From assembly GCF_022201045.2 (NCBI RefSeq), contig NC_068556.1:18953501-19017500 (forward strand): DNA of 64,000 nt, given 5' to 3'. This stretch comes from Citrus sinensis (taxonomy: Eukaryota > Streptophyta > Magnoliopsida > Sapindales > Rutaceae). Below the pieces are notes generated by a model. It did not search any database and was not told the origin of the DNA. It saw only the letters and a program-made list of their open reading frames with translations. Of the stretch, positions 338-45,500 are shown one piece after another; the stretch's first letter is position 1, and the number at the start of each line of letters is the position of its first letter. The translations under genes were made by a program, and so were the position numbers.

Positions 338-953
338 TCACAGCTTGATATTATCACTGAATGTTGCCATAAGTTCTGAACTCAAAGTACCACCAACAGT
401 TTCATTGTAAAAACTCTCAAAAGCCTCCTTCAGGGCCTTGTGGAACAACTCGTGGTTTATGAAACCATTACTAACATATTCCATATACTCGTTGTGTAGC
501 TCAATTAATTCTCGAATAAGGATCTGTTGCTGCAGTTGCTCTTTGCAGCATCTTCAGCCTGTTGTACCAACAGCGTACATTCAACAATAACATGTTGTTT
601 GAATGCACTAGCCACTTCTTCCAAGCCGTTAGGTATTTTATGGTAAAGCCTACACATCCTGGGAAGATCATCCACCCTATCTTCTTTAAGCAATGCTCTG
701 CATTTTGCTTGTTCCTTTTCAAAGAGCTGAATTGCATTCACTACCAACAACTCATGTTCTACTTTCTCCACCAATTTTTGCGCGCTGCTCGAATGCATGT
801 AATGAGACACTCTATCTCTTTCCTTCTCCAAGCATTCCTCAGCCTTGATCATGTAATCTGGACACGAATCCGAAATAATCCAATTCGATGCCTTACAAGA
901 ATAGTAATTACCGGTATCCCGAAGCATATGTTCTTCAAAATCCTTTTCATAAC
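338..953 (-). pseudogene. Cullin-1-like pseudogene, 3' segment (after the retrotransposon)
   Basis: This is the downstream half of a cullin-1 N-terminal region. Reading on the minus strand from 953, it matches the CUL1 segment beginning [11 protein letters not shown], then [32 protein letters not shown], and ends near [10 protein letters not shown] frame slip near 540 then moves the reading frame to one that continues as [12 protein letters not shown] and [13 protein letters not shown], and stops at TGA 338-340, in the region that is LATFCDNILKK in CUL1. The linker, the cullin homology domain and the winged-helix neddylation region are absent. CUL1 normally scaffolds SCF ubiquitin ligases: its N-terminal repeats bind SKP1/F-box and its C-terminus binds RBX1. 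This copy could at best encode the SKP1-binding half, and it is interrupted. The coding match runs without introns, unlike my recollection of multi-exon plant CUL1, so a processed copy is possible. Confidence 0.8.
949..953. repeat. Target-site duplication, left copy (ATAAC)
   Basis: ATAAC directly precedes the TGTTG terminus of the left LTR and is repeated immediately outside the right LTR at 6575-6579. Five bases is the usual Ty1/copia duplication size. Confidence 0.95.
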
Positions 954-1458
954 TGTTGTGCACGGAATGCGGAATCAAGCGCACCAAATAATTACAGAAA
1001 AATAAAGGACACAAGAATTTACGTGGTTCGGTAATTAAACCTACATCCACGGAGGCAAGAAAGAATAATTGTTTATTTAACAATTAATAGAGTACAATAT
1101 TTGAGTAACGAATCTCACTTCCCAGAAACTCAAATATACCCAGTACTCTCACACTCTGCAGGAAAGATAAATTCCCCAGACACACTTCTCTCACTTCTCT
1201 CAAAAGCTTAGAAACTTATAAGCTTAACAATTTTAGGATGATTTCAAATGAATGAAATCCTTAGCTATTTATAGGAGAAATGAATTACTATGCAAAGAAT
1301 AAAATAATTAAAAATATAATTTTTAATTATTATTATTTTCCAAATCCATCCCCTTTGTCCATTCTTTCTTTTCGGCTTGAAAAATCTCTACAATTGTTGG
1401 TGTACCAAATCGTGCTACCAACCTTGAAATTGGCAAGCTCTTCTTTGACTTTTCAACA
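954..1458 (-). repeat. 3' LTR of the copia element (left copy)
   Basis: 505 bp running from TGTTGTGCAC to ...TTTTCAACA on the plus strand. It is collinear with 6070-6574. By eye the differences are all transitions, e.g. the two bases after TGTTGTG, and ACGG/ACGA in the middle. On the minus strand it starts TGTTG and ends CAACA. Confidence 0.95.
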
Positions 1459-1470
1459 ATTTTCCACCTC
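1459..1470 (-). other. Polypurine tract of the copia element
   Basis: On the minus strand the bases just before the 3' LTR read GAGGTGGAAAAT. This is the usual purine-rich plus-strand primer directly abutting a copia 3' LTR. Confidence 0.8.
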
Positions 1471-1742
1471 GGCGAAGATTATTCAAATCTGAGCCGACTA
1501 CCAACGAGCCATCATACCCAAAGTGGCTGCATCTCTATGACTGCCTACGTACCCAAAATTTGGGATCAAGCCAACCCTAGTTCAAAATTCCCGAAGGACA
1601 TATCTTAACACAATCGAAGGATTTGAATTAATTTCAAGCAATGTTGAAACTTAACTCCAGAAACTACCTCCATCAACATATCTGATGGATTATCTTTGGT
1701 ATCGATCTTTCTCAACAACACAACACCGCTCTCGATAATCTC

Positions 1743-2282
1743 TCACACATAATGATATTTCACATCTATGTGCTTCGTCCGAGCGTGATATGTTTGATTT
1801 TTCGCAAGGAATATCACACTTTGATTATCACAGAAGACCGCAATGTTCTCCTGGATTACTCCAAAATCACCTAACAAGCCTTTCAACCAGATAGCTTCCT
1901 TTACAGCTTCAGTTGCTGCCATGTACTCTGCTTCCGTAGTGGACAGAGCAATTGTCGATTGTAGAATCGACCTCCAGCTAACCGGACCTCCACCCAATGT
2001 GAATACGTAGCTCGTTGTTGATCTTCGCTTGTCAAGGTCTCCAGCGAAATCAGAATCACAATACCCAACACATTGTTGACCACAATCCTTCTTGAACAAT
2101 AACCCAACATCAATTGACCCATACAGATATCGGAGAATCCACTTTACCGCAAGCCATTGATTTTTACCCGGATTGTGCATGTATCTACTAACCATGCTCA
2201 CTGCTTGAGATATATCGGGCCTTGTGCATACCATAGCATACATAAGACTACCCACAACACTAGCATATGGAACACGAGCCAT
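1743..2282 (-). pseudogene. copia RNase H / end of reverse transcriptase region
   Basis: Reads as the connection and RNase H part of copia pol. Landmarks are RPDISQAVSMVSRYM, YCDSDFAGD, TTEAEYMAATEA, WLKGLLGDFG, CDNQSVIFLAKN and the HARTKHIDVKYH box. A stop follows directly after HYV, while recognisable sequence continues beyond it towards the LTR, so the C-terminus is broken by an in-frame stop. Confidence 0.9.
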
Positions 2283-2297
2283 GTAATCGCGCTCCTC

Positions 2298-2966
2298 TTA
2301 ATATCTAAGACATGAAGAATAGCTTAATTTAACATGAGGAGCTAGAGGTGTACATACCGGTTTAGTTTTGTCATCCATACTGAATCTTTCTAGCACTTTC
2401 TTCAAATAAGACTTTTGAGTCAACCATACGCTCCCATTCTTCTTGTCTCTACGAATCTCCATCCCAAGTATTCTTTGTGCATCACCCAAGTCTTTCATCT
2501 TGAACTCAAAAGCCAGCTGCTTTTTTAATCTTTCGATCTCATCTCTATTCTTCGAAGCTATAAGCATATCGTCGACATAGAGTAACAAATAGATGAAAGC
2601 TCCATCTGGTAGTCTTTTAAAGTAAACGCAATGATCGTGTTCACTTCTGGTGAATTTCTGCCCTTGTATAAATTGATCAAATCTTTTGTATCACTGCCTT
2701 GGTGATTGCTTCAGTCCATACAAAGATTTAATCAACCTACACACATGATTCTCCTTTCCAGCAACTCTGAAACCACAAGGTTGAATCATATAGATTTCCT
2801 CCTCCAAATCTCCATGTAAGAACGCCGTCTTAACATCCAATTGAGCCAACTTTAACTCATATTCTGCAACTAAGGCAAGTAAGATACGAATGGAAGTATG
2901 TTTTACAACTGGAGAGAAAACTTCATTGTAGTCAATACATTCCTTTTGAGTAAAACCTTTTGCCAC
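2298..2966 (-). pseudogene. copia reverse transcriptase (broken)
   Basis: The RT domain is split over two frames. The 5' part (2691-2966) carries MAKGFTQ, FSPVVKHTSIR, QLDVKTAFLHGDL and SLYGLKQSPRQ. The 3' part (2298-2588) carries the catalytic YVDD box in LLYVDDMLIAS and GMEIRRDK. A frame break and altered sequence lie between 2590 and 2690, so no full-length RT can be made. Confidence 0.9.
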
Positions 2967-3286
2967 GAGCCTTGCCTTGTATCGAGGAGTTGTTTGATTC
3001 GGAGATCCTTTCTTTTTAGTGTAGACCCATTTATTGTCAATAGCCCTTTTTCCTTTTGATAACTTTACAAGTTCCTAAGTCTGGTTTTGATGGAGAGATT
3101 TCATCTCTTCCTCCATGGCTAACTTCCACTGATCACTTTCACTGCTGCGTAATGCTTCACCGAAAGTGTTGGGGATGTCATCATCAATAACTGGAAGTGC
3201 ATAGGCTACCATCATATCTTTAGTGAGCCATCCGGGTTTCTTTATCTCTCTTCTTGGCCTCCTTGTTGCTATAAAATCATCATTAT

Positions 3287-4190
3287 CTACATCATCAATT
3301 GTTTCTTCATTTTGTGGGACATCAGAAAAAAAACATCTTCTTCAACTCTAGGTGTCACCTTCATAGTTGAACTATTCTTTAATGTAGAACTAACTGGTAC
3401 ATATAGAGTTGCATCAAACTCCACCCGCTGCAATACCTCGTTAGTCTTGTTCTCCACCTGCTGAGAACTTGAAGCTTTCATCATTAAAGCTTCATCAAAT
3501 GTGACATCTCTACTACACACAAATTTTTTGTCTTCGAGATCCCAAAGCTTGAAGCCTTTTAATCCACATTTGAATCCCACAAAAATAGCTTTTCTAGCAT
3601 GAAGATCTAGTTTACCATCTTTAACATGATAATAAGCTGGACACCCCAATATACGAAGGGAATCATAGTCTTGTGCATACTTTCCAGACCACATTTCCAT
3701 AGGAGATTACCTCCAATTGCAGCAGAAGGCAATCGGTTTACCAAGTGACTTGTGTAGCTCACAGCTTCAGCCCAAAACTTTTTATCTAAACCAGCATTAG
3801 ATAACATACACCGTACCTTCTCTAGTAAAGTACGATTCATACGCTCAGTCACACCGTTCTGTTGCGAAGTATGTCTCACCGTGAAATGTCTTTTAATACC
3901 CTCGTTTTGGCATACTTGCAAGAATGGATCAGAAGTATATTCACCCTCATTATCAGATCGTAATACTTTGATCTTTCTGCCAGTTTGAGTCTCTACCAAT
4001 TTCTTCCATTTCACGAAAATCTCTAGAACCTCATCTTTTGCTCGCATGGTGTACACCCACACACGTCTAGAGAAATCATCAACAAATATAACAAAATAAT
4101 GGCTTCCACCAATTGATGCAATCTTGGTTGGTCCCTATACATCACTATGAACATATTCAAGGATCTCACGAGTATCGTGATTAGCTGTAT
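3287..4190 (-). pseudogene. copia integrase (broken by frame change)
   Basis: The integrase core is recognisable from KVLRSDNEGEYTS, HTSQQNGVTERMNRTL, MLSNAGLDKKFWAEAV and HLVNRLPSAA. The C-terminal extension, with GCPAYYHVKDGKLD, FVGFKCGLKGFKLW and SRDVTFDE, is in another frame. The change falls around 3640-3700. The core belongs to the DDE superfamily, and the frame split rules out a functional protein. Confidence 0.88.
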
Positions 4191-4326
4191 CAAACTTGAC
4201 CCTTGTTTTCTTGCCTACTACACAATGCTCACAGAAACTTAATTTACAGGTTTTGGTACCTTTTAAGATTCCATACCTCATCAGAGTTTGCAAAGACTTC
4301 TCTTCAGCATGTCCCAGCCGTACATG

Positions 4327-4722
4327 TTATAGCTTGGTGGTGTCACTGTGCGCCTCAACAACATTTGTTTCATCAGTTGTACCTCCCTTCAAATAGTACA
4401 GATTGTGACGCCGAACCCCTTGCAGAATCACCATAGCCCCATGTGTAAACTTCATTATACCATCTTCAATGGTAACCTTGTAGCCTTTAGCTTCCAAAGC
4501 ACCTACAGAAATTAGATTTTTCTTTAAAGCTGGAACAAATCTAACCTCTTTGATTTCTCTAACCATTCCATCAAACATTTTGAGCCGAATTGTTCCTATC
4601 CCCATTGTGCGACAAGGTTGATCATTCCCCATCACAACTGTACCGGATTCCAGATTATGAAAATCTGTAAATCATTCCTTAATAGGACACAAATGATAGG
4701 TTACTCCAGTATCAAGTATCCA
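4327..4722 (-). pseudogene. copia protease and GAG-pre-integrase region
   Basis: The aspartic protease motif reads WILDTGVTYHLCP near 4700, where copia elements usually have DTGA or DSGA followed by SxH. A TGA stop follows PIKE where related elements carry a Trp before FTDFHNLE, consistent with TGG to TGA. The zinc-binding pre-integrase segment ends with GVRRHNLYYLKG at about 4400. Confidence 0.8.
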
Positions 4723-5673
4723 CTCGCTCAAACTAGCCACGTATGCTGCAGGAGTAATACTTAGTGAATAATCAAAGCCCTCATCTTTCCGTGCCATGTT
4801 TGCTGCTGCTGGTTTCTTCCCATCTCTCTTTTGAGCCTTTGGACAATCTTTCCTCCAATGGCCCTTTTCATGACAAAAGGCACACTCATCTCGAGCTATA
4901 TTTCTACTTTTCGATTTGGATCGAGAATTCTTTCCACCACGCTTCTTCTGTTTCTCCATCGCTCAATCTCTGCTCACCAACGCTTTAGACGATGCTCGTT
5001 CAGAATTTTTATCATTATTCCGAATCTCTAAGCTAGTCAATGCTGTGCAAACATCTTTAAAGACGATCACACTCTTCCCATATATCAAAGTAGTCACAAA
5101 ATGGCTATATTCCTCTGGTAGTGAGTGTAACATAATTATAGCCTTGACTTCATCCTTAATATATTCATCAAGATTCTTCAAATTAGCAAGTAACTTTTCA
5201 AATCTTGAGACATGATTGTGCATTGACACCCCAGGCTTCATTCAAAAACCATATACTTGGCTCATTGTATAAAGGCGATTTTCAAGACTTTTCACTAGGT
5301 ACTTCTCCTCTAATGTACGCCACAAAGTCACCGCACACTCCTCATCTTTCACCAAGTATTTCACCTCCTTGGTCAAACAAGATCTGATCTGACCACATGC
5401 TTTTTCATTCATACGATCCTAAATTTCTTCATCATACAAGTGTCTTTTATTTTTCAGAACAACATCCAGATCGATTTGAATAAGGGCATCCATAACTTCG
5501 TGCCTCCACATGCCGAAGTTGATTTTCCCATCAAACTTTTCAACATCGATCTTTTGGCCTCCTATAACAGGTGCTGAATAGCGATTTGACAAATTTCGCC
5601 TCCCACCTGAAGCGTCTCCTGAAATAGTCTCGGTAGATCTTTCCCCAATTCTGGAAGTTTCACCTTCTACCAT
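4723..5673 (-). pseudogene. copia gag with CCHC zinc knuckle (several stops)
   Basis: Starts at an ATG at 5673 and shows the gag core (VEKFDGKINFGMWRHEVMDA). It then runs through a TAG after YDEEI, a TGA near 5242, and a TGA after LVSRD. The nucleic-acid-binding knuckle CAFCHEKGHWRKDC lies near 4880 and is intact (CX2CX4HX4C). The three in-frame stops make gag non-functional. Confidence 0.88.
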
Positions 5674-5869
5674 TTTTTTAACGAATTATTTCCACTTGAA
5701 AAACCGTCTCTATGATGTTAATTTCGCGTGAATAAATGCACCAGGAAAGTTCCCAGGAGACTGGACGGGAACTCGGTCCCAATTAAAAACCAGAATCCTT
5801 AGACTCTTATCGCCTTTATTGACAGAACTTTCTTATACATGCAAAAATACACACTACTTACAATAGACT

Positions 5870-6055
5870 GTCTCCCAAGTACAAATGGTCGTCTCCACCA
5901 TATTCGTGAACAGTACCGTATACAGGAATAGTACCGTATACGTGAACAGTACCATATCCCCCCAAGTACGAACCATATCGTATTCGTGAACAGTACCATA
6001 TGTGAATAGTATCGTATACGTGAACAATACCGTATCCCCCAAGTACGAACCGTCG
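5870..6055 (-). repeat. Degenerate short repeats in the copia leader
   Basis: Between the primer site and gag, units of roughly 20 bp such as GTATACGGTACTATTC and GTACTGTTCACG recur about seven times with variation. A longer unit containing GTACTTGGGGG recurs three times. Similar motifs occur in the leader of the second copia remnant at 10345-10435. Confidence 0.75.
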
Positions 6056-6067
6056 ACTCTGATACCA
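6056..6067 (-). other. Primer binding site, initiator Met tRNA type
   Basis: On the minus strand TGGTATCAGAGT starts two bases after the 5' LTR. This matches the 3' end complement of plant initiator methionine tRNA, which primes most copia elements. Confidence 0.92.
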
Positions 6068-6069
6068 CT

Positions 6070-6574
6070 TGTTGTGTGCGGAATGCGGAATCAAGCGCAC
6101 TAAATAATTACAGAAAAATAAAGGACACAAGAATTTACGTGGTTCGGTAATTAAACCTACATCCACGAAGGCAAGAAAGAATAATTGTTTATTTAACAAT
6201 TAATAGAGTACAATATTTGAGTAACAAATCTCACTTCCCAGAAACTCAAATATACCCAGTACTCTCACACTCTGCAGGAAAGATAAATTCCCCAGACACA
6301 CTTCTCTCACTTCTCTCAAAAGCTTAGAAACTTATAAGCTTAACAATTTTAGGATGATTTCAAATGAATGAAATCCTTAGCTATTTATAGGAGAAATGAA
6401 TTACTATGCAAAGAATAAAATAATTAAAAATATAATTTTTAATTATTATTATTTTCCAAATCCATCCCTTTTGTCCATTCTTTCTTTTCGGCTTGAAAAA
6501 TCTCTACAATTGTTGGTGTACCAAATCGTGCTACCAACCTTGAAATTGGCAAGCTCTTCTTTGACTTTTCAACA
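6070..6574 (-). repeat. 5' LTR of the copia element (right copy)
   Basis: 505 bp, collinear with 954-1458. It ends ...TTTTCAACA on the plus strand and is followed by the ATAAC duplication. A putative promoter and the transcription start would lie in this copy. Confidence 0.95.
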
Positions 6575-6579
6575 ATAAC
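6575..6579. repeat. Target-site duplication, right copy (ATAAC)
   Basis: Identical to 949-953. Discounting the element and one duplication copy gives an uninterrupted cullin reading frame across the site, which confirms the insertion boundaries. Confidence 0.95.
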
Positions 6580-7159
6580 AATCCATTTTCCCCTGTCCAA
6601 TCTCAACAAAGATATCCAATACATTCTTCAGTAATGCCCTGTCAATCTCTTCTCCCTCGCGTTCTCTATCAATTAAAGTAATTACGACATCTTTTGCTTT
6701 ATGCTTTAGAGCATCAAAAACCAGATCCCGGAAGCAGGTAAGTCCAATTTCACTAATTGTAGGAAGTGCTCTTTGACGAATGTAATAGTGTTCGAGATAG
6801 TTGAAGCAGAGTGCCAGCCATTTAACCATAACTTTATGATTAGCAAATCTTTTCACAAGCTCCCTCAGCAAATGCTCATCATGCTTCTCACTCAAAGATG
6901 GAAATACCGTTGATGACATATATTCTTCAAGATCTTGCTTTCACTTGTTATACAGCTGAGCATAATATTCATGATGAGGCCCCTGGATGCAAGTAGAGTA
7001 GACAGAGCTGTAAAGCATAACGTAATCGTCCACATTAAAGGGTGGCTCTAGTAATCCTTCTGAAATCCTCTTCAATTTTGTGATCCATTTCTGGATAATG
7101 TCCCATCCTTCATCCATGTCAATTTCCTTGTGCCCCATTGCTAAACAATTACCATCCAT
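6575..7159 (-). pseudogene. Cullin-1-like pseudogene, 5' segment
   Basis: Begins at an ATG at 7159 and matches the CUL1 N-terminus: GWDIIQKWITKLKRISEG, DYVMLYSSVYSTC, then [36 protein letters not shown], and the [20 protein letters not shown] helix characteristic of CUL1. A TGA codon interrupts the frame at about 6942, directly after QLYNK, where CUL1 has Tyr or Arg. Homology continues in the same frame after it. Translation would yield about 72 residues, so the gene was already damaged or became so independently of the retrotransposon. Confidence 0.85.
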
Positions 7160-9870
7160 GACAGCAATAACTTAAGAAAAAGCTGAAAACTAACTAGCTA
7201 TTTTATTCTAATCTTTCAACTCTATGGCGAATTTGTGACTTGAGAGCTCAATGTAGGTGCCTTTATATAGTTTTATCATGTATCCTAACTAGACAAGAAA
7301 TCCTAGGCCCGCATTTTTGTAATAGACAAATTTTTCTTAATCTAATAAGGATTCTTTTCCGTTGGAAGAGTCCTTCTAGAATTTTAATAAGACATGCCAA
7401 TATATATAATACAAATACGTACCAGGCATCCAGAATTCGAATAGCCTCTTCCTCTTCTTCTTTGTCCGCTCTTTCAGTATAAGCTGTCATCATCGATCTC
7501 TTTGCATTCGAATTACTAATTATTCTTTTAACTATATATATATATATTAATCTTTACTTCTTGGGCTAGATCCTGGAAAATTTCCCTTATAGCCCTTACA
7601 TTTTTATAATTTTTATTAAATAATAAATTTTTTTATTTTATGTTCAAGTATGTTCCCAATTCAATTTTTTTCTTTCTTCATTTTTAAAGTAGAGTTAGAG
7701 ACTTATTTTACAATATAATTCAGTTGTATATTTATTGGATAAACTGAAATCATTAGGAGGCTAAAATATTAGTACTAATTCAACTTATTATAAAAAGTAT
7801 TATGGTTTGTTCTAATTGAAAAAAGAAAAAAAAAAGATATGCCAATATATTATAACATTCCCACTAGGAGTAATTTTAAAATAAGGAAATCTATTATTCT
7901 AATTAAAATAATAATGGTATGTGTCACTCATCTAATGGGCGATGAATGTAACATTACTTGTCACTCTAATTCTACAATCTAATTGATGAATGACACATTA
8001 TTTGTAACTCAATTTGGGACTCAAATAATGAGATTCCTAACATTACTCAATGATATAGTAACAATTAACAACATTTTCATAATTTCATGATTTATTTTTG
8101 TTGATGCCAAAAATGGTCGTGTCAATGTGCGGGTTACTTACTAGATTCTAATGACAACATTAAAATTTATTTGTTCGAGGAGACGGTTTCTAGCCTCAAT
8201 TTAGCAACCTCAGCAAAAGTTGGTGACCAGGAATCTGATCTAGTGAGCAAGAAATAGAGAGCATGATCCAATCCTAGTGAGCACCTGCAACCAGAGAAAC
8301 GGTCAGGGGTGCCGGAAGTTTTTCCGGCATTAACCCTTCGAAGCTCAAGTTAGTATCAAGGATTTTCATGTGATAATCGGGTGTACGAATGTTTGTGTAA
8401 AAAGACCTATTCAAAATGGACCAAAGAGAGAAAAATTGGAAGAAACTCTCCCTTAAATAGTAAAGAATGATAGTGAAGAGGGAAGACCAATTGAAAAATA
8501 AAAAGGATAAGAAAGATCATAGATCAATCTTCAAATTTCAATTTGATTAAGTAGGATTTCTAGAGTTCAAAAAATTTGTCCATCCCTTATCCTTTAAGGA
8601 GTTTTATAAGAATGGCAAAGCCAACAGAGTCAAGTTTCAAGGAAAACCTGATTCTAGTAGCTTTATTTTATCACCCAAACAATTTCCTTCACAGTCATAC
8701 TTATTCTTTTTCATTTCATTAAATTATATTATTCAAATGTATCACGTTCTATATCACCAAAATAAAACGGAATTTCATAAATAGTTTCTTTAATGCATAA
8801 TTTAATTATTTATGTTATAAGCTTGTTTGTTATATTGTTATCATTCTTTTATTAAATATATGTAATTTACTAGGAGTTTTAATGTTTATTTTTTTCCCTC
8901 TTTCTTTACAAGAACCAACATTCACACAAACATTTACCAAAAATTTATAAATTAGTCTGGGATAATAAAAGTCATGGGTTTGCCTCTGCTATTAAGAAAA
9001 ATTAAGACAAAATGCTATAACAAATTCAGAGCAACACACATTTATTAGTCAAATATCCATTAAGATTGTTTATTACTCAACCACAATCAAATTCAGTTCA
9101 TGATTTGCAATAGAACAGTGAATAAAATTGTTTTAACCATCAAATACATTCCCATAAATAAATAGCAAACAAGAAAATAAGAAGAAGAACTGAGCTCTGT
9201 TTGGTCTTTGTGACATCTCCTTTGTTTTCTATTTGAGTCCTCTATTACAGCCTTGAATCTATCTCATAATTTTTGTTTTCTTATTTTTTTTCAGTATTCT
9301 CCTTGGCTGATGGCTCTCCCTTTTTTTTCTTTTCATGTGTGCTCCTTTTATAACTTGAGATTAGGGCAACATAAAGTGTGTACGCGTATCCTCCATTTTT
9401 GGAAACTTCATATCGCAATCTTTTAGTTATTGCGCCGAAATCCAGTCTGTTAGTGCTCCAAGATTTCTACAGCAATGACTACAACATCTTCACTGATTCG
9501 AACTTGTTTTAACTCCTCTGTAGTCAAGTTTTTTCATTATCTCTACAAGTCTATTGCAATAGCGTTCCTTCCCTAAAACTTGAGCTTCTCAGTCATCTAT
9601 AATCATGCACATAATCTTAGCACAAAAATGATCTAGACAACTCAATTTATTAAAAATAATCCAAAATAGATGTTTATGTAAAATGTAACTAAAATGCAAT
9701 AAAAAACACATTATTTACTCTCTAAATAATATTGATTTAAGTTTAAAAGTGTCATGATAACTCTCATTTCATAAAGTTATCAGTTACTTTCCATATCCCA
9801 TTTCCGGGATTCTACTTTGCTCAGATAAAATCATTCGAATTCGCCCTTACAATCTAGTGTTTTGTATTAA
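7160..9870. other. Intergenic, upstream of the cullin-like pseudogene
   Basis: No convincing gene. The segment next to 7160 should be the former promoter and 5' UTR of the cullin-like copy. A region at about 7915-8060 resembles the MITE at 53968-54135 (shared AATTGATGAATGACACATTATTTG-like stretch). A short hairpin with stem GCCGGAA/TTCCGGC lies at 8311-8328, inside a moderately GC-rich patch (8130-8350) that looks like a mobile-element relic. The rest is AT-rich. Confidence 0.5.
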
Positions 9871-11545: not shown

Positions 11546-12720
11546 ATATTTGTACACTTGAAGATCATGAAAACAGTTACCTTGAACGTTGAGAAATCTG
11601 AGACCATCAAAAATCTCAAAGGTATGGTACATGAGAAGGAAGGGACATCTGAAGATATTCAGGATCTCTTCTTTGCTGGTGACAGGCTTATGAATGGCAG
11701 GTTGATTGATTATGGTATTGAGAGCAACTCTACGCTCCATCTTATTGAACAGACATCAAACGGAAAAAAATTGTTTGTGAAAATGCCAACGAATGAGAGA
11801 CCCATTGTATTGGAAGCAATGGCTCACCATAACACATCAAATCCCTGATTCATGTTAAGAAGGGGATTCAGTCCGATCGATTCATCCTTGTTTATGATGG
11901 AAATCTTCTTGAAGAGGACATGGCACTAGCTTCCCCGAATGTCAAAAGGGAGTCAACAATGCAATTGCTCTTTTGTGCAATTAAGGTTCTATCCATTTCT
12001 GTGAAAGCCCCATCTGACGATATTCTGAAACTGAAAGTTAAAGTTTTTTTACTGTTGCTGATGTCAAAGCAATAGTTGGGAGTATCACAGGCGTCTCTGT
12101 CAGCGATTTGATTATGAACTATGCAGGAAAGCTGCTTGAGGATTGCAAGACTTTGGCATTTTATGACATCAAAGAAGAGTGAATGTTAGCGATGTTTCCT
12201 TCATTGATTCAGATTTTTGTTAAAATGCTGACTGAAGAGATTGTGAAACTCAAAGTTAAAGTTTTGCTTACTATTCGTGATTTATTTTGCACAGGAATGA
12301 AGCTCAAGGATTGCAAGACCTTGGCTTGTTACGGTGTCAAAGATGACAGGGGTGTTGCCTGCTTCATTTCAGATATTTGTTAAGACTTGGACTGCATGGT
12401 AACACTAGATGTCGAGCTCTGTAACAAAATAAAAGTTCCGAAAGAAAAGGTTTTTTACAAGCTGCAGATTCCCCTTGAGCGTCATAGTATTGTATATGGT
12501 GGAAAGTGTCTGAAGGATAACCTGGATCTGGCAAGCCACGACATCCAAAAGGACGCTACTCTCCACTTGGTTTTGCGCCCTGGGATTCTATTTTGTTTTC
12601 TGATCTCGAGGATATGGCTTAACCTAAATTTTGAGTTCCAGTAAAGGAATTACATTCTGTCAAGTGGTAGTACAGGATGACTTCTCCTGACAGATTATGG
12701 TATGAACTTTATCACAAGAC
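11546..12720 (+). pseudogene. Tandem ubiquitin-like-domain gene, decayed copy
   Basis: Paralogue of the intact gene at 14362-16613 and collinear with its second exon. The exon starts after a CAG acceptor at 11545 and opens IFVHLKIMKTVTLNV. The first ubiquitin-like (UBL) domain and the start of the second are open to 11847. A frame slip in the second domain and another near 12040 follow, then a TGA near 12180, an internal deletion in the fourth domain (between LLTIRD and LFCTGMKLKDC), and a TAA near 12380. The fifth domain (VTLDVELCNKIKV...ASHDIQKDATLHLVL) is recognisable. A scrap of the sixth lies at 12642-12715. The intron before it also matches the intron of the intact gene. No first exon was found upstream, where the copia remnant lies. 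Confidence 0.85.
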
Positions 12721-14361
12721 TGGCTCTAGCATTTTGAAAGGAACTAATATATACCTTTTTATACAATATTGCTTAATGACAGTACTTTCGATAATTAGTC
12801 GAACTTCTGAAACCAGTTCCGTCGATGCATTCTTGTCTTTTTTCTTTTCTTTTTTTGTTGGATTGATGCTTTAAACTAATCATATTTTACTATTTCAGGT
12901 CCCTTTTCTTTTAGTTTTCATATGGATTGATGCTCTAAAAAGTCGACTCCGTGACATCATTATATCAGTTATTCTCATAATTTTGTTTCCACCCTTTCGT
13001 ATTTATGTCATCTCAGCTTGTATAGGAAAGTTTGCATAACCAGTTTCTCAAGCTTATCTGTAGCCAAATTTTAACCCTAAATACCTGCTCATACTTACAG
13101 TTCAATTTGAATTGACCGAAAGCTAGGTCTAGTACCATATCCAGGCAGAATGTGCAGTAAAGCACCCTTGTGTAATGGTTATTGCTTATGCAGTTATTCC
13201 ATAAGTGGTTCTATCTTATCTTCCAAATAATTCTCAGTAGGGTAGATTTGATATTGTAAGTGTAAATTTTTTATCTATACTCAATGAACTGTCGGATTGT
13301 ATTATATAATAATAAATGTAGATTTCATTTTTAGCTATACTCTAGAATTATAAAAGATTTGACCTATAGGATCATAGTAATAATATATTAGAAAAATAAA
13401 TCGCTCGCTTTGGGGTTTACATTGCTATTATTTAGTCTATTTCTTTTTACTTCTGACTAATCATCAAAGAAAAAAAGACAATATTTAACACGTTTTTTTT
13501 TTAAATAGTAATGCTAGACATGCAATTGCAAATCCCAACTAATGTTGTTCTAGTACAAATCCACCACAAATGGTAAAGCATATAAACCAACCATTACATT
13601 CTTTGTCACAATTGTATAGTATTATAGTTAATATTTTTCCAATATTAACTTTTTTTAGTAAATTCTCACCCATTCTTGAAAACTTACCAATTGTGATATG
13701 TAGGAAAGCAAAGTTGATAAAATTCTTTAAAAAAGAAAAGTGGAGAATAATAATTTTTTTTAAAAAAAAATAAAATTATCTCTTGCCTAATATTGGTCTT
13801 TATTGTGGTAGCTTCACTTGGTGGGATTCTCCTCCTAATGAGTTTAAAATATTTATTTCATGCCATGTTAATAGATTTCAAATCCACCACATGCTTTGGT
13901 ATTTGTCTTGACTTTAAGCATTTACGAGTTAAGGCTTAATATGTCTCCTTAAGTGTTCCATTTAAAAAAATTAAATTACATTGTTCACAAATGAGAGCAA
14001 ATTAATAAATAAATGCCCATGCCATAATAAAAACTCTTTATAATTAAAAAAAAAAACTCTTCATACAAATTTTTACGTACAAACTGCTACGTCAAAAAAT
14101 ATTAAAAACGATAATAACAATAAAAACTCTGCATGATTGTCTTTTTAAGAGTTTATTACATACTTATATCAAACTTCATCATTTTTTTTTTTTATTTTGG
14201 GATTTATTGGATATGGTTAGTTGCCATTTGTAAAGCGAAGTGGAAATTGCTTGTTCAAGTTTGCCAACTTCTTAACTCTCTGTCACACCCTTGACTCTCA
14301 TTCTCTCTTCATAACCGTAAGAAAAGGGGGGAAAAAATTGTATTTTTTTGGTTCATTCTCC
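12721..14361. other. Intergenic; 3' flank of the dead copy and promoter of the intact UBL gene
   Basis: The sequence around 13045-13095 matches 17019-17065 downstream of the intact gene (CTCAAGCTT..TATCTGTAG followed by a similar run), so the duplication included 3' flank. The remainder is AT-rich with no gene. The promoter of the intact copy should lie in about 14100-14361, but no clear TATA box was identified. Confidence 0.55.
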
Positions 14362-16613
14362 ATGGATTCATCAGAAGGTCAATCATCCACAACCCACCTC
14401 AATTCCCCTGAAGAAGAGGTCTATATACGTTTTACCTTTTTTTCTTTTAATTATTTTGGTTAAGTTGTAATTCCATTTTTACTTTTTGTTTTTCTTACAG
14501 TTGTTAAGAAAATAAAAAGTATATGATGTGGAGGTAGGTTTCATTTTAGAAGTGAGATTAATAAATTGAGATTGATTCATGAGAAGGACATGAAACAGAG
14601 TAGTCTCTGAAAAATGAAATAGGTGTTTGTTTGCTTAAGATGTTTATATATGTAATTGTTACCGAGTTGTCTACTTAGACACATGATGTTTCTTTTGTTT
14701 ACATCATCAAATTAATGTCTAGAATTCTTGCTTGTGATCTTGTGATCTTTTTCGGCATAATATTGGAAACTTGTATAACATGAACTCCAGCTATAATGTG
14801 TGTTAGTTGGTTCAATTGGTAAGTACAATTATGCATCATATAATCTCTCAAATGCTTACTAGCTAGTATATATCTTTTTATACTATGTTTTCTCTGTAAT
14901 TATGAGGGATGGATTGAATTTTCTTTTTAGACATAAATTTTTAAACTTGTATTACATAAACAGCATCTAAATTGTGTGTGGTGATTGGTTCAATCAGTAA
15001 AATCTCTTGGGGAAATACAAGAAATCCAGGACTCAAAACCACCCTCACATAGTCACATGAGTGAGGAGCAAATTTAGTTATTATTGATGAATGCTTTAAA
15101 AAAAAATGTAGCTATACTACTAGTACAACCTTAATGATTTGTATGATAATCGTACCAGGATTACTTATTTCTAGTGTGATTCAGTGAAACATTCGTCGTA
15201 CAGTAATTAAATCATTAATCATCTAACCTAATAATTGTTAGTGACTCTCATTTTGAGTGTATCTTTTAGGAATTTACTTTCATTTTTTTTCTGTAGATAA
15301 ATGTATACTTGAAGATCATAAAAACAAGTACCATGAAAGTTAAGAAATCCGAGACAATCAAGAATCTCAAAGCTATGATACATGTGAAGGAAGGGATATC
15401 TGAAGATATTTGCGATCTTTTCTTCGCTGGTGATAGGCTCGAGGCAGGCAGGCTAGTTGATTATGGGATTCGGAACAACTCCACTCTCCATTTTCTTCAC
15501 CAGAATCTTAGTGAAATGAAATTGTTTGTGAAAATTCCAACTAATCAAACAGCCACCGTCGTGGAAGCAATGCCTTACCATACTGTTCAAAACATCAAAA
15601 CAATGATTCAAGTTAAGGAGGGGATTCAATCCGATCAATTTACCCTTGTCTATGATGGAAAACTGCTTAAAGAGGACACGGCGACTATGACCTCCATGAA
15701 TATCAAGAGTGAATCAATCATTCATTTGGTCTTTTGTCCAAAAGAGATATTATCAATTTTGGTGAAAGCAACAACAGGAGAGATTGTGAATCTTGAAGTT
15801 AAACATTCGTTTGCTATTCGTGATGTCAAAGCAATAGTCGGGAGCGTTGTGGGTGTCTCTGCTGCCGATCATGTTTTGATATATGAAGGAAAGAAGCTGG
15901 AGGATTCTAAGACTTTGGCATTTTATGACATGAAAGATGAGTGCTTGTTAGAGATGTTTCCATCATCGATTCAGATTTTTGTTAGAACACCAATTGAGGA
16001 GATTGTGAGACTCGAAGTTGAAGTGTTGATTGCGGTTCGTGATGTAAAAGAAATTGTTGCAAACATTATTGATTTATCACTTCGCAACCAAGATTTATTT
16101 TATGCTGGAACGAAGCTTGAAGCTTGCAAGACCTTGGCTAGTTATGGCATCAAAAATAATTACGTCGTAGACGTGCTACCTTCCCCATTTCAGATATTTG
16201 TTAAGACTTGGGGTGGAAAGACTATAACACTTGATGTCCAGCCATATAACACGGTCCAAGATGTGAAAGTCAAACTTTTTGACAAACTGCAGACTCCTCT
16301 TCATCTTCAGAGTATCGTTTTTGATGGAAAGCGGCTATTTGAAAACCATGTTCTGGCAAGCTACAACATCCAAAAGCATTCGACTCTTCACATGGTTTTG
16401 GCACCCTCTTCAAGGATCATCGAATTGCCATTAATCTTTATTGATCCTTCAATATCACTGTCTATTTCCATTTCTGAAGTGAAAGAAATGGCTAAAGTCA
16501 AATTTCAAGCTGCAGTGAAGGAGTTATTAGTCGATCAAGTGGCATTACAGGATGACCGCACTCTGGCTGATTATGGTATGGACTTGTCCGAGAAAGTGGT
16601 TCTCGTGTTTTGA
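14362..16613 (+). CDS. Protein of six tandem ubiquitin-like domains
   Basis: Two coding exons: 14362-14418 (MDSSEG...PEEE) and 15297-16613, joined in phase 0 (GAG|gt, ctgtag|ATA), giving 457 aa. The splice is inferred. It restores the first beta strand (INVYLKI) of the first domain, which a start at 15309 would miss. The six domains are at about 20-88, 93-167, 169-239, 243-313, 317-387 and 393-457. The fifth is closest to ubiquitin (QIFVKTWGGKTITLDV, SYNIQKHSTLHMVL). None ends in Gly-Gly, and the protein ends VVLVF, so it cannot be cleaved or conjugated like polyubiquitin. It is more likely a stable scaffold or decoy for ubiquitin-binding proteins or the proteasome; that role is inference. 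A lysine at the ubiquitin Lys48 position is seen in domains 2, 3 and 5. A decayed tandem copy lies upstream. Confidence 0.85.
14971..15110 (+). mobile_element. Possible tRNA-derived SINE fragment
   Basis: Within the intron of the UBL gene. GTGATTGGTTCAATCAGTAA resembles an A-box region and CCAGGACTCAAAACCACC a degenerate B box, followed by an A-rich end at 15101-15109. A similar GTTAGTTGGTTCAATTGGTAAG lies at 14803. No clear target duplication was seen. Confidence 0.35.
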
Positions 16614-17677
16614 GAAGGCAATAATAGAGTCTTATTCCATATTGGTTGATGCCATTATTTTACCTGATATAATTACATTTGAAAACCTATACACAGATGC
16701 TTCAAAGGACATGTATTTTAGACCCTTTTCTTAAATTTTTCTTTTGGATGTTTGGTATGTTTTGGTATTAAGTGTGGAGGATTAAATAAAGACATTTGTG
16801 ATTTTATTGTATCACTGCTGCATCTTTTATTCTCATATTTATATCCTCATTCTGCGCTTTTATGCAAACCTCAATTTGGTATGCATTATTTGACATGAGA
16901 TTTAGTGCAATCAGTATGAAGTTCAAAACTAGCAAAACATTCTGTGTATATGAAGCAGAAGCTGACATTGGAAATTAGTTTTGAGCCTTTATTACCTCTC
17001 TGTGGAAATTAACTAATTTCTCAAGCTTTATCTGTAGTCATTGTTTTAATCGGAAATACTGGGCCATAAGAAGCTCTCATTGAATTGTTTTTTTTTGCCA
17101 AATCCATGTTTTCCCTTTTCTCAGCTCATAGCTGCCACAAGTTTTACCCCTGCTTGAGTTTGCCAAAAATATCCTCAAATTTTCATATCTTTAATCATAA
17201 ATATTCAAAGGTCCTAGAAAAATATCATCTCTGTGGAATGTAAAAGAAAGTGATGATATTTCAAGTTTTGAGCTCGTGCAAATGGCATTGAGCATAAACT
17301 TGTAGTTTCCAATGTTCTTCTAACGGTGATATACGCAATCACTTTCTTTCCACATCTAGGTCCCAGGCATATGTACATCTATGTAGAAGCTTTTTGTATT
17401 ATGAATTGTTGATCCTTTAATGAATGACACTGACATGATTAACAATAGGCCTCAAGCTATTTTTTTTCTCTGCAAGCTGCTTTTTCTATGTACAGGTCAA
17501 AACAAACACAAGTTCTCTCTTCTCCACTTTGTTGATTTTCTTGGCATCCGGAACATGGCAAGAAAAAAACAAATACAATGGTTGATAAAATAAGGTTTGA
17601 GTTACATCCCTCCATCCTGAAGATTTTGTATACCTGTAAAATTTACAAATGGCTAGATTCCTGCTGAAACTTACATC
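16614..17677. other. Intergenic between convergent UBL and RIC genes
   Basis: Holds the 3' UTRs of two convergent genes. No coding region seen. 17019-17065 is the downstream copy of the duplicated flank described for the dead UBL copy. Confidence 0.5.
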
Positions 17678-39589: not shown

Positions 39590-42500
39590 TCAAGTTGTCA
39601 CCTTCTTCTCGCTATTCTTGCTTCGAAAGGGTGACAACAAGGAGAAAGATCGAGAAGCTGCAACCATAAGAATAGAACTCTTGATACCCATCCACATTCA
39701 TTCTAGTAACATATAATATTTGGGAAGAGAAGACAAATTATGAACAGCATCAGTGAGATAAATGCAATAGGAAAACTTACACTTTTGTGGAGTAGATGCA
39801 GCTGTAGGGGTTTCGTCTTGAGATATGAGATTTTTCAAAGTATGAACTGAGGGTGACAACAAAATTGATGGTCAGGTTCTAAAGAAAATATATAATTATG
39901 AGTTTACACTAATGTTTCATATCTCAGAACTTCAGACATTTCCAAATTGCATTATTACTTACGGTTACTCAATCTTCATTCATGTATAGGGAGGTCCTAA
40001 TTGATAAAGCTAATTTCTAGAGTTCATTTCTATAAGCCACATGTCCCATGTGAACATTGCTTACAGTTACTCAATCTTCATTCATGTATAGGGAGGTCCT
40101 AATTGATAAAGCTAATTTCTAGAGTTCATTTCTATAAGCCACATGTCCCATGTGAACATTGCAAAATTTTCCTAGTAAAATATAAGCAACTTCTCATGCT
40201 ACATTTTCTTCTTTGAACAAATTGACTTTCCTGTACCAAAAGTGACTTAAGTTGTGACACAAAAATAGGTCTCCGTAACATTCCTGTGCATTGTGAATAA
40301 TCTAGACATCTAGTTCAAATTGCACATCCGAAGATAAATCTGCAATTCAAGGATTCTAACCAATTTTGAATATATTGGAAAATGCAAATAATATGATATT
40401 ACTAATAATGCTCTTGTTTCATTACCATAATCATTTAACTTCAAATTGAAAAATGGAGGCTAAATAATATGTGATTGTTTCTGCAATTTTCCTTTTGTAT
40501 TGATTAGATACACGACTATCTAGCATTTTGAATATCTTTGTCGTCAGAATGCACAAGGATCAAGTATATTGTAATTACCTTCTATAGCAGCATCATCTGT
40601 CTCAGAATTAATAAAACTAATGCTGTCAGAGTCAATATTGCGGTCCCCAGTACTTGAGCTATGATTCTTTTTTCCAAACTTCAACAGTCGTCTAAACCCT
40701 TTTGATGACTCCTTTGTCTGAGGCTTATCTAATGCTTCCGGAATCTTTTCTAATTTCATATTGTTACCATCGGACACACGAGCTTTAACCATCTCTGTTC
40801 CAGCCACAATAGATGTGGGTGCTCTTCCATACTCTGAATTTCTAGTACATGGATCTTCCAAAGAAGAGACCCGAGCATATGGTGCTTGATATGGTTTTTC
40901 ACTAACACTAACGCTTGGAAATTTTGGTGTTTCCTTCTCTGCATCATCAGAGTATGCTGCTGTGACCTAGAAACAGAAAAAGTAACAGAATCAGATAATC
41001 AAGAAAATCAGCATTGCTGCCAAACGGAGGCTCAACCAATTAGAAAAAATATGTTTGATATTTATAGATACGTCAAAATCTTGTTCAATTGTTAAGATGA
41101 AAAAGAAAATTGTAAAAACAGATCAACACAGTAACCACATTTTCTTTTTCAACTATAACAAACTTAAAAATAAGTTTGTAAACAGTGTTCACACTGTTTT
41201 CGAGACTGATTGCACATTCAGAATAATCAAGCAAAACAAACACCAATTAAATTTGTTTAAAAAAAATTTAATCACTTTCAGTTTTAATCAATATTACCAT
41301 GCCTCTTAATTTTCAGAATGGCAACATTGAATACTCATAAGTAGGGATGGCAAAATCCTCCACGGGTTTGGGGCTCCATGGAGCCCCACCCCAAATGGGG
41401 AAAATTTTTAATAATTTTTGGAGAATGGGGTGGGGAGTGGGGGAAAAATAATCCCCAAATTGTTAACGGGTGGGGTTTGGTATTGCACTCCCCACCCCAC
41501 CCCCACCCCCACCCCAATCCCCATTATATATAAATATGTTTTTAATTCTTATTTAATAATTGTTATTTTATCAACTATAATGTCAATTAATATTTTTTTA
41601 ATTTTTATGTAATATAAATAGAATATGAATAAAAGAAAACCCTACAATATTTTCAACTTTAAAACATTATTATATTTTTTTTTCTCTTTTAAGGAGCTGC
41701 TCTCTTTAAATATTTTTCACTTTTAATATCATTTTAAGATATTATTTCAAATTTTTAGAGATTTTTTTAAAAAATTTCAATATTTTATAATATGGTAATG
41801 ATTTTATTTTAAGTCTCTAATTTTTAATTTACTAAAATCATATTTTTATATCTACTATAAAATAAGTAAATGGGAAATGAGGTGAGGATGGGGGAATCAT
41901 TCTCCACGTGGGGATTCTCCATCCCCAACCCACTAAATTTATTGGGGAATGGGGTGGGGAATGGAGGCAAAAATTTTTAATGGGGTGGGGAATGGGGTAG
42001 GCATCCCCACCCCCACCCCGCCCCATTGCCATCCCTACTCATAAGTGCATCTGATAGGCAGTCGGTTGTCATCAACTTCAAGTGGGATTTTACAGATCTT
42101 ACCAATCCTATCTCATAGGCAGCCGGTTGCTCCTGTAATTGGTCTTCAATGTGTGCTTTATCAACTTCAACCACAGTTAGTAGTGACACTGGCGCACGAA
42201 TAGCAACATAATCTGACACGGCCTCATTTTTCTCCCCTGTTCTGTAATCATCACTGTTTTGCTTCTGAAACCCCATATTTTCCTCTCTTGTATTTACAAC
42301 AGGAATGGAAGGTCTCTCGGATTCAAGCATCACAACAGTCTTCTCAATTACCAAATTGTCATCTGCATCGCTATGATATGAAATTTTGTCCTTATTTCTC
42401 TTCAATTCAGCACCTTCAGAAGTGGAATCAGACTTGGTCCCATTTACCTTTTGTACAAGTTCTTTTCCTGCTGGTTTGCTGTGGGCAACAGCAGGTTCTT

Positions 42501-45500
42501 TAGATTTTCTAATTTTCAGTTCTGGAAGGGAAGCAGCCTTGCTTTTATCATGGTTCATGATTGCAGATATTTTCTTAGTCTCAGACCCATCAGATGCTTT
42601 AGGTTTTGATACCGGTTCAGCGCTTCGTGCCTTTACAGAAGAAACATGCTGACTACTGCTCATTTTCGGCTCAGATAATCTTCTAATTCTTGCCATGGAT
42701 ACCTTGGTATCGGGTGTAACAACAGCGTTCTCTTTCTTTGGTTCAGGCAATGATGATACCGAGCGGGTCAACCTATTTCCACCAGAGTGGCTTCCAATAT
42801 TTAATTTGGTGGGCTTAGATGCTTTGTGAGAATCAATGGATCCCGCAGAACCAGTTCTGATGGGAACCCTCTGCAGGGGCGAAGACGATCCGGGTTCTGA
42901 ATCACTGAACTTTGAACTTCTTTTAGCACTTGGAGATAGCTTTGTTGGTAATTGTTTTCTGGTTTGCTGTGAGGACAAAGTTGATTGAGTGGTGGTTGAA
43001 CTACCCCTAGCAGCAATTCTCTTTTGCCTCTCTATCTTTAAGGCTTCTAGTCGTTTAGCCTCTTCCTCTTCCTGAAAAAATAAATGAATAAAATGAATAA
43101 GAGAATATTGGTATCCATTGAACTAAACATGCCAGTGTGGGAGACTCTGAAGTCGTGCCAAAAAGAAAATACTTCTCTGATGTAACTGGCTATATGAACA
43201 GGAATATCCTGCTTTCCCACAAGTGCTTTTATATTTTCAATTCAGATCTAAGTGTTCAAATAATAGTTAGCAAAGTACCTTCTGTTTCTTTAATTTCTGC
43301 ATATCAGCTTTAAAGGTTCTTAGCTTCTCAGCACGTACTCTTGCTTCATCCAAAGGACTCAATTTTGAAGGCTTTCCTTTCCTTATTGGCCCCACGATTT
43401 TCTTCTTATCCGAAGTATCCATAAGTTTTGATTTCCGGTCCTTGTCTATCTTCTTGGACCCTTGCTTGACATCAGTTTCAGACTGCTTGTTTTTCTTATT
43501 CTGTGAAGCACCTTCAGCTTGCATTTCATAATCTAAAGCAGGGTCATAACCTATTAAACCTTTTTCTGCTCCACGCTCGGGCAGCAAAGTTAATTCATCT
43601 GGCTCATAACCGAAAGCCCTATTAGATGTGTTTTCTGACTTCTGATAAGATGATGGGAACTCAGAATCCATATCAATAGCATTTCTTCCATCAGTTACAA
43701 CTTCATCTGGCAAAACTGATCTCAATGGAACTATGTAGGAATCATCATCCATGTTATTCGATGAGCTTCTATCCCAATTATTAGTCACTCGCTCAAAACG
43801 ATTAACAGCTAATGAGTCAGATGGAGAGTTTGCAAGAGCTGATTGTCTATGAATTATAAAATCATCAGTTGTGGTCCTCCTATATCCACCCCTCCTGCCA
43901 TCTATTTCTGTTGATTGTAGATTGATTTGACCATCCGTGAACCTTCTACCATCACCAGATTGACCCACTCGTCCTGAGATCAATAATTCATCATTTGATG
44001 TCTTAGGCATGCGAGCAATTTTTCCACTAAACTTATCAATGTCTGCTATATTTTCTTGATGATATTCACCAGCATCTCGACCATTAGAAATTAAAGGGTC
44101 ATCACCAACTGTGCTTTGTCGCCTTCTTGCTCGAACACCCTTTTCCATTGCAAACATGCCTTTATCAACAGCACGATCCTCTTCATCAGCACCTCTAAGC
44201 AGATAATTTTGAAATGCATGCCACTGACCACCATCTTCCTCCTTCATCTTACCTGTTCCTTCCATGTTGAATGAATTTGAGGCATCCCCAGATTTTATAT
44301 GACTTTCTTTTATTTTTGAAGATCTTGAAGAACTTTTATGCTTCATCTTTGGTGTACTGACCTCCGTGTCTCCATCTTCTTCATCGGTTTCGGAGTTTGA
44401 AGCTGATTGTGATTCACTACCTGAAGAGTTTTGCCTGTTTGCAGTAATGTAATTAATGTTCCGAATGACAACCTTGCCAGATTGCTTTTTACCTGATCGA
44501 CTAGCCTTCTTTCTCGAAGATTCTCTGTCCAGTTCTGCATCATCCTGAGATTTTACCTTCGATGCGTCCATCTCCCAAGTTTGTAATTCAGTATTGCTAT
44601 CCCCACTATCCATGGAATGCCTTCTCTGTCTCATTCTTTGACCGGCATTTTGTCTAGGATCCTCCATTGGTGGATAAGGTGGATGAAAATATCCACTATT
44701 TGCAGGATAGTAAGCCATGCCCTGCATAGGATACCCCTGAAATACTGGTAGTGCACCTGGCGGAGAATGGATAGGCCAGGGAGGGAACATGGAATGTGGA
44801 AACTGCCCTTGAAGATATTCTTGATTGCCGGCTGGTTGCTGATTTATAGTAGGCTTCTCATCTGACATTAAAAATTTTTCAACTCAACTTTTGAAGACAA
44901 CAAGGATGAATAAAATACCATAAAATTGAAATACAAATGACACATTCCAAGACATAGCCAAAAGTTGCAATAGGACATTCAAAACTTTCATATTATATAA
45001 ACATGTGGTTATGGGACATTTCCCAGGTCCTGGGACACCTTTCAGGTTGTTGGACCTGTGTGGCAGCTCTATTCTTTTAAAGTACCAACTCAGCACCTCA
45101 TGTAAATCTTGACACCAGCATCCACATGAGTGCCCCTGGTACATGCATAGAGGGCTTCTGGAATATTATTATAACCAAAAAAAAATGGAGCTGTACAGCT
45201 ATTACCATACTATCTTATGAATTAAGAAATTAAGAAATCAAGAAATCAAGACACGAGGCGTCCATAAATGCAAAAGAAATTCTAGATTATTTTATAGATA
45301 AAAAGAAAATGATTAATGGTCTTTCCATGCTGAGAAAAAGCTATGATTTATTTTCCCACTTTGTAGGGACACATAAAGAATAAGATCCTCAAACATTAGG
45401 CGGGCATGAGCTATGAAGTGTTTGCCTCTGCAAAGGAAACTTAATTGTTTATATCAAGGGACAGATCTAAGAATCAAAGCGCTGTTTTTCCATTCTATTT

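Follow-up and report, generated by a model that had tools for sequence, protein, structure and literature searches.

A predicted two-exon Citrus gene for six tandem ubiquitin-like units without Gly-Gly, within a local family of diverged copies

We analysed a 64,000-nucleotide stretch of the Citrus sinensis genome (hereafter the window; C1:18953501-19017500 in a genome of 300 Mb and 11 contigs), and confirm at the level of sequence a two-exon gene that encodes six tandem ubiquitin-like (UBL) units, with Gly-Gly neither between them nor at the C-terminus of the protein. The gene structure is shared with a paralogue, the units keep position-specific identities across gene copies, and coding change has been slower than in a broken neighbouring copy. 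Most likely, the six-unit gene is a real, fast-evolving and non-conjugating UBL scaffold, apparently retained under selection.

Gene model and the six ubiquitin-like units

The predicted gene begins with an ATG at 14362; the boundary GAG|GT sets the donor after 14418 and TTTTCTGTAG|ATA sets the acceptor before 15297 (Table 1). The join between the short first exon and the long second one, for which a first-pass annotation had sought support, is strongly supported by a matching exon 1 in the paralogue Q, an open four-unit copy of the same local cluster. About 1.1 kb upstream in Q, the exon-1 end MESSSDENQATPTLNSPEEE, standing before GT, matches MDSSEGQSSTTHLNSPEEE of the six-unit gene (E 0.84, the best match in its list, the others being chance-like with E 2 to 100). 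Furthermore, a degenerate DNA pattern that covers the end of exon 1 and its donor, written after both copies had been seen, occurred at exactly two places in the 300-Mb genome, namely the six-unit gene and Q, and nowhere in the reversed control. The stretches searched around the three other copies of the cluster, psi, R and R2, yielded no matching exon 1.

Table 1. Features of the six-unit gene and related copies (window positions unless a locus or contig is named; identity to ubiquitin over aligned columns)
Feature	Position	Strand	Remarks
Exon 1, coding part	14362..14418	+	19 codons; acidic peptide, C-terminal end LNSPEEE, then GT donor
Intron (predicted from sequence)	14419..15296	+	878 bases, GT...AG, 71% A+T
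Exon 2	15297..16613	+	438 codons open plus stop; six UBL units
UBL unit 1	15297..15515	+	45% identity to ubiquitin; first codon ATA
UBL unit 2	15516..15749	+	41% identity; Lys48 retained
UBL unit 3	15750..15968	+	37% identity; Lys48 retained; groups with unit 4
UBL unit 4	15969..16187	+	30% identity; probably a duplicate of unit 3
UBL unit 5	16188..16415	+	50% identity (38/76 columns), nearest to ubiquitin; Lys48 retained
UBL unit 6	16416..16610	+	26% identity, weak; DDRTLADYG motif retained; ends LVF before stop
AATAAA, possible poly(A) signal	16785..16790	+	172 bases 3' of stop
psi, broken exon-2 copy	11546..12740	+	75.0% identical (892/1189 aligned bases)
Q copy	L009 5325-6221 = C1:18851324-18852220		open, four units
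R and R2 copies	L010		both interrupted
Cullin N-terminal pieces	338-7171	-	PF00888; further copies in L011

The exon-2 protein matched the Pfam ubiquitin family PF00240 with E 2.7e-68 (226 bits), and the stretches so matched span the whole protein. Counted at a lax limit (E <= 10 each) they number six, in agreement with the six folds in a row read by the first-pass annotation; the last of them is the weak part, only weakly ubiquitin-like, and alone scored 18.1 bits (E 0.0023), under the 25.4 cut-off. The Rad60-SLD family scored 131 bits against 226 for PF00240, which does not indicate SUMO ancestry, and SUMO itself was no member of the unit tree described below. No UBA domain was among the ten families listed for the exon-2 protein, unlike what is expected of UBL-UBA shuttles of the RAD23/DSK2 type.

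Gly-Gly was found at none of the five junctions nor at the C-terminus, which reads VVLVF and so lacks the ending of a conjugatable modifier; the sole Gly-Gly of the exon-2 protein is internal to unit 5. R42 and R72, which have a role in E1 recognition, are absent from all six units, and the linkers depart from RLRGG in both sequence and length. The position-48 lysine is present in half of the units, the same number that the first-pass annotation had given. At a list of 17 sites that we take to form the hydrophobic core of the ubiquitin fold, units 1-6 carry 16, 16, 16, 16, 15 and 13 hydrophobic residues (shuffled means 7.1-8.9; 16 in ubiquitin itself), and even for unit 6 the count exceeds its shuffled mean of 8.1 (P 0.004). 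The surface patch, which we assume to consist of L8, I44, H68 and V70, reads W, V, H, V in unit 5 and P, V, H, V in unit 2. Unit 5 alone has a nearly intact patch, apart from unit 2, in which position 8 deviates; the fifth domain is, as had been claimed, the most ubiquitin-like.

An AlphaFold2 model, built from three sequences of which one was polyubiquitin, predicted the ubiquitin-type strand and helix pattern for units 1-5 with a local confidence (pLDDT) of 69-88 by blocks of ten, and gave unit 6 a confidence of 33-57. The whole-model predicted TM-score (pTM) was 0.36, which we take to describe freely jointed units. Among the 50 matches listed, the best folds in the PDB were linear tetra-ubiquitin chains, followed by tri- and di-ubiquitin, USP7, OASL and ISG15; TM-scores by query were 0.16-0.25, so a chain of folds was matched and the overall shape was not. 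A chance origin of the units was ruled out by the Pfam matches, the hydrophobic-core shuffle and the existence of the second copy Q.

A local family and its probable origin

At least five copies, the six-unit gene among them, are clustered within 120 kb (C1:18851360-18970110), and three of these are interrupted. Psi, a copy of exon 2, aligns with nine gaps, of which seven shift the reading frame, and has stops at three of the aligned codons. Q has four PF00240 stretches, and neither its junctions nor its C-terminus carry Gly-Gly; by eye, a unit-5-like fragment apparently lies downstream of its stop (L009 about 6880), and Q may therefore once have been longer. Copy R appeared as an open frame of 410 amino acids in one search and as 147 + 195 amino acids in another, and is counted as interrupted because stops were read between its two halves, although an unrecognised intron may be the alternative. 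Wherever a junction could be read in the five copies, it lacked Gly-Gly.

A tree of 20 units, from which psi units 4 and 6 had been dropped beforehand and the second interrupted L010 copy left out, groups units by position across copies. Unit 1 falls with Q1 and R1 (91/86), unit 2 with Q2 and the second unit of copy R (93/90), units 3 and 4 with Q3 and R3 (96/93), and unit 5 with Q4 and R5 (84/90); the branch of unit 6 is very long (about 2.8). Unit identity is thus older than the gene copies. Given these shared positions and the absence of Gly-Gly, the ancestor was probably already an uncleavable four-unit protein, from which unit 4 would have arisen by duplication of unit 3.

The codon after the acceptor points further back. 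All five cluster copies read AG|ATA at the acceptor, in place of the ATG of genuine polyubiquitin. Among ten distinct genuine ubiquitin starts of the same genome, all judged by eye, four (L015, L016, L022 and L027) have an intron-like stretch that runs into CAG|ATG or TAG|ATG, so that their acceptor directly adjoins unit 1 as in the six-unit gene; the other six are not acceptor-like. The simplest account is that the ubiquitin start codon was lost in an intron-bearing polyubiquitin ancestor. In such a history the ubiquitin ATG would have become ATA, initiation would have shifted to the upstream exon, now a short acidic leader, and every junction would have lost its Gly-Gly.

With Gly-Gly lost at all junctions, the product would stay one chain that cannot be conjugated. 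In the absence of Gly-Gly and of R42 and R72, neither activation nor cutting by ubiquitin-type enzymes is expected, and non-covalent binding therefore remains as the mode of action. We infer an expressed, stable protein in which a fixed array of five to six differing UBL surfaces behind the acidic leader would bind non-covalently, each unit presenting its own surface, specific to its position, to proteins that bind UBLs, ubiquitin or the proteasome.

Genuine polyubiquitin genes lie on C6 and C9, and share with the six-unit gene head-to-tail units in one exon, some of these exons starting at unit 1 behind an intron-like acceptor. They differ in that the seven units of the C9 copy in L016 each end in RGG, whereas the six-unit gene has units 26-50% identical to ubiquitin rather than nearly identical, no cleavable Gly-Gly and a start upstream. 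In the protein searches of the genome (best 51 and best 50 candidates scored), the matches listed outside the cluster comprised ubiquitin and polyubiquitin loci, a diverged ubiquitin piece on C9, a dispersed repeat that contains part of ubiquitin, and some weak C3 matches (E 0.003 and 0.02); they also included two loci, on C6 and C9, which we take to be of the ubiquitin-RUB type. Of seven pattern matches in a search for viral relatives, none encoded a relative.

Two of these loci deserve separate description. On C9 (L034 2187-2562, about 30.614 Mb, minus strand) there are two diverged ubiquitin units, ~70-84% identical in pieces, whose junction reads LRGR, not LRGG; the pair may be a decaying dimer. 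The dispersed repeat, of 839 bases, occurs at L011 5364-6202 and L037 2149-2986 with 97% identity between the two, and has further short matches at C3:3011870 and C7:21580162. It holds the first 48 ubiquitin codons behind a splice-acceptor-like CAG, and the 40 bases upstream of this piece differ in one base from the genuine ubiquitin locus L015. From this resemblance, the repeat appears to carry a captured ubiquitin piece.

Constraint and competing explanations

Compared pairwise with psi, the six-unit gene gave a ratio of nonsynonymous (dN) to synonymous (dS) divergence, omega, of 0.61 over 388 codons (dN 0.28, dS 0.46, twice the log-likelihood difference 8.85), and of 0.56 for units 1-5. In a relative-rate count of unique changes with Q as outgroup, positions 1+2 had 29 changes in the six-unit gene vs 52 in psi (566 sites, χ2 6.53) and amino acids 17 vs 32 (283 sites, χ2 4.59), whereas position 3 had 26 vs 25 (283 sites). 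Furthermore, neutral simulation at the estimated branch length (0.30 changes per codon) led us to expect ~5 stops in the gene, and zero stops were obtained in 0.25% of 2000 runs. Moderate constraint on the six-unit gene is suggested by these comparisons, short of proof. That the gene is simply decayed polyubiquitin, an outcome by which the first-pass annotation would have been refuted, is made unlikely by the lack of Gly-Gly at the readable junctions of the five copies, the shared ATA, the old unit identities and the slower coding change than in psi.

Several results weigh against a constrained scaffold. Unit 6 has omega 1.03 against psi (49 codons), that is, no constraint; a three-sequence codon model gave the gene's own branch an omega of 0.57, indistinguishable from 1 (log likelihood -2712.18 vs -2712.33); and the comparison with Q (units 1, 2, 3 and 5; 292 codons) gave an omega of 0.21 that is rough because dS is saturated (2.69). 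With all positions pooled, the relative-rate count is borderline (55 vs 77, χ2 3.67), and bases misaligned close to the psi gaps could inflate the count of changes in psi. At half the branch length (0.15), the chance of meeting no stop under neutrality rises to 6.5%. Of the 17 inner branches of the unit tree, four pass the strict mark and another four stay open, and psi unit 1 was not placed as sister of unit 1. To these are added the three-sequence basis (one being polyubiquitin) and the pTM of the structure model, and the canonical patch, which is mostly lost across the units, so that no partner is predictable from sequence.

Weighing both sides, we put at roughly even the chance that this is a real polyubiquitin-derived gene of a local family whose unconjugated single chain would act as a non-covalent, multivalent UBL scaffold. 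Clearly less probable, and still the foremost alternative, is a relic: a diverged copy that has lost its use and was caught before stops accrued. Such a fate has already met the three of five cluster copies that carry stops or frameshifts, transposon pieces (copia gag, hAT) lie nearby, the own-branch omega is indistinguishable from 1, and that of unit 6 is 1.03. A relic would, however, leave unexplained why changes are fewer than in psi at positions 1+2 and not at position 3, why 438 codons have stayed open (neutral P 0.0025 for a branch of the estimated length), and why the hydrophobic core residues, together with the exon-1 end and donor, have been retained, the latter across the deep split from Q.

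The remaining explanations accept a working protein and differ in its use. A protein that imitates a linear ubiquitin chain, as a decoy titrating ubiquitin-binding proteins or pathogen effectors, would suit the fold matches to linear tetra-ubiquitin and to the tandem UBLs of OASL and ISG15; rapid divergence and copy turnover would fit an arms race, and an interaction of a zebra chip effector with the RAD23 UBL of tomato is reported (PMC8396652). We regard it as improbable, since only unit 5 has a near-canonical patch (unit 2 deviating at position 8), the linkers are unlike RLRGG, and the omega values obtained are below 1 except in unit 6. Marginally less probable again is a proteasome adaptor or degradation signal, an array docking to proteasome receptors like RAD23-type UBLs. 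The usable hydrophobic patch of unit 5 and Lys48 in three units speak for it, and the RAD23 UBL is described as binding RPN1 or RPN10 (PMC8396652); yet neither a UBA nor another cargo-binding domain was listed for the exon-2 protein, and the acidic leader has just 19 residues. Continued processing into single units by an unusual protease, with some units serving as modifiers, is very improbable: nothing specific favours it, and both the missing Gly-Gly at the junctions and end and the loss of R42 and R72 in all six units oppose it. The interpretation offered at first pass is partly supported, in its gene structure and unit features (exon join, six units, no Gly-Gly, Lys48 in three units, unit 5 nearest ubiquitin) and not in the decoy or chain-mimic role.

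Genomic surroundings and related systems

The UBL copies fall into two groups, at 18.851-18.863 and 18.965-18.970 Mb, and an array of cullin N-terminal sequences lies between them. A genome search with the cullin placed nine of 20 matches in C1:18926230-18960644, of which three are without internal stops (two over the full query) and six have stops; in L011, two copies keep an open frame of about 302-311 codons. Pfam Cullin (PF00888) was matched in the three pieces tested, and the array copies presumably resemble CUL1. A Copia-type element at about 1743-5685 (extent by eye) separates the cullin pieces of the window, and its gag piece (4963-5241) matches PF14223. With this array, a second family of ubiquitin-system genes seems to undergo birth and death at this place, and any link between the array and the UBL family is speculation. 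We think it unlikely that ubiquitin-derived, position-specialised and permanently linked UBL chains, retained and remodelled by plants in a birth-and-death cluster around the cullin array, are an encoded linear-chain mimic in an arms race over SCF and ubiquitin. Elsewhere in the window, 54967-55398 encodes a hAT transposase dimerisation domain (E 2.9e-32), and two consecutive open frames on the minus strand (41977-43122 and 43267-44883; 381 and 538 codons) had no Pfam match at E 0.001.

The first-pass annotation knew of no characterised plant protein with exactly this arrangement; the arrangement is not unique, as the same genome holds a four-unit copy and SUMO-like concatemers, several without diGly, have been published from grasses. 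These are the nearest published precedent found; a plant ubiquitin-derived concatemer without Gly-Gly was not found in the open-access literature consulted, subscription papers and database annotations being mostly outside this scope. At the grass DSUL/GSUL2 locus, SUMO-like genes and concatemers form a variable array in which several lack diGly, the units belong to separate clades and tandem duplication is active (PMC6680281). The Citrus cluster is likewise a variable tandem gene array of fused UBL units that have lost diGly. The grass genes are SUMO-like and derive from gene fusions (PMC6680281), whereas the Citrus gene is ubiquitin-like, with up to six units, a separate coding exon 1 and a lost ubiquitin Met1 codon. 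By analogy, the cluster family is the DSUL/GSUL2 kind of thing, apparently built from ubiquitin. Maize DSUL is reportedly linked, by the title of a study cited in PMC6629649, to female gametophyte maturation. In Arabidopsis, UBQ8/9/12 and At1g53930-53980 may be further leads; At1g53980 stands in one downy-mildew gene list and At1g53930 is a T-DNA site in another paper.

More distant systems can also be compared. ISG15 is conjugated through LRGG, and the C-terminal array of USP7 (HUBL) joins several UBLs in one protein. Vertebrate OASL and ISG15 resemble the Citrus protein in their tandem diverged UBLs, including fold matches to 7sbi (OASL) and ISG15 chains, and differ in having two UBLs only, with an OAS domain in OASL. 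USP7 has UBLs in a row and was matched by fold, but at 10-11% identity and as part of a deubiquitinase. Human OASL (hOASL) binds RIG-I and enhances its signalling via its UBL domain (PMC4351405), and UBL5/Hub1, a UBL without diGly, works non-covalently (PMC8431670). From Hub1/UBL5 and hOASL it follows that UBLs can act non-covalently, although UBL5/Hub1 is a single, highly conserved unit. Bacterial PolyUbl operons also encode tandem UBL repeats in one protein (PMC11354881); they are bacterial, have E2-like and JAB partners, and are alike by description only.

Ubiquitin is among the most conserved of proteins, and polyubiquitin genes keep their units alike. A polyubiquitin-type gene that persisted although it had lost its start and all its cleavage sites, and whose units had each taken on an identity of their own, would illustrate how a fixed multivalent protein can evolve from a modifier, and would extend the story of the grass SUMO-like concatemers to ubiquitin itself. 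If expressed, the six-unit protein would be a naturally occurring linear chain, resistant to cleavage, with which to test what plant proteins recognise chains of this kind.
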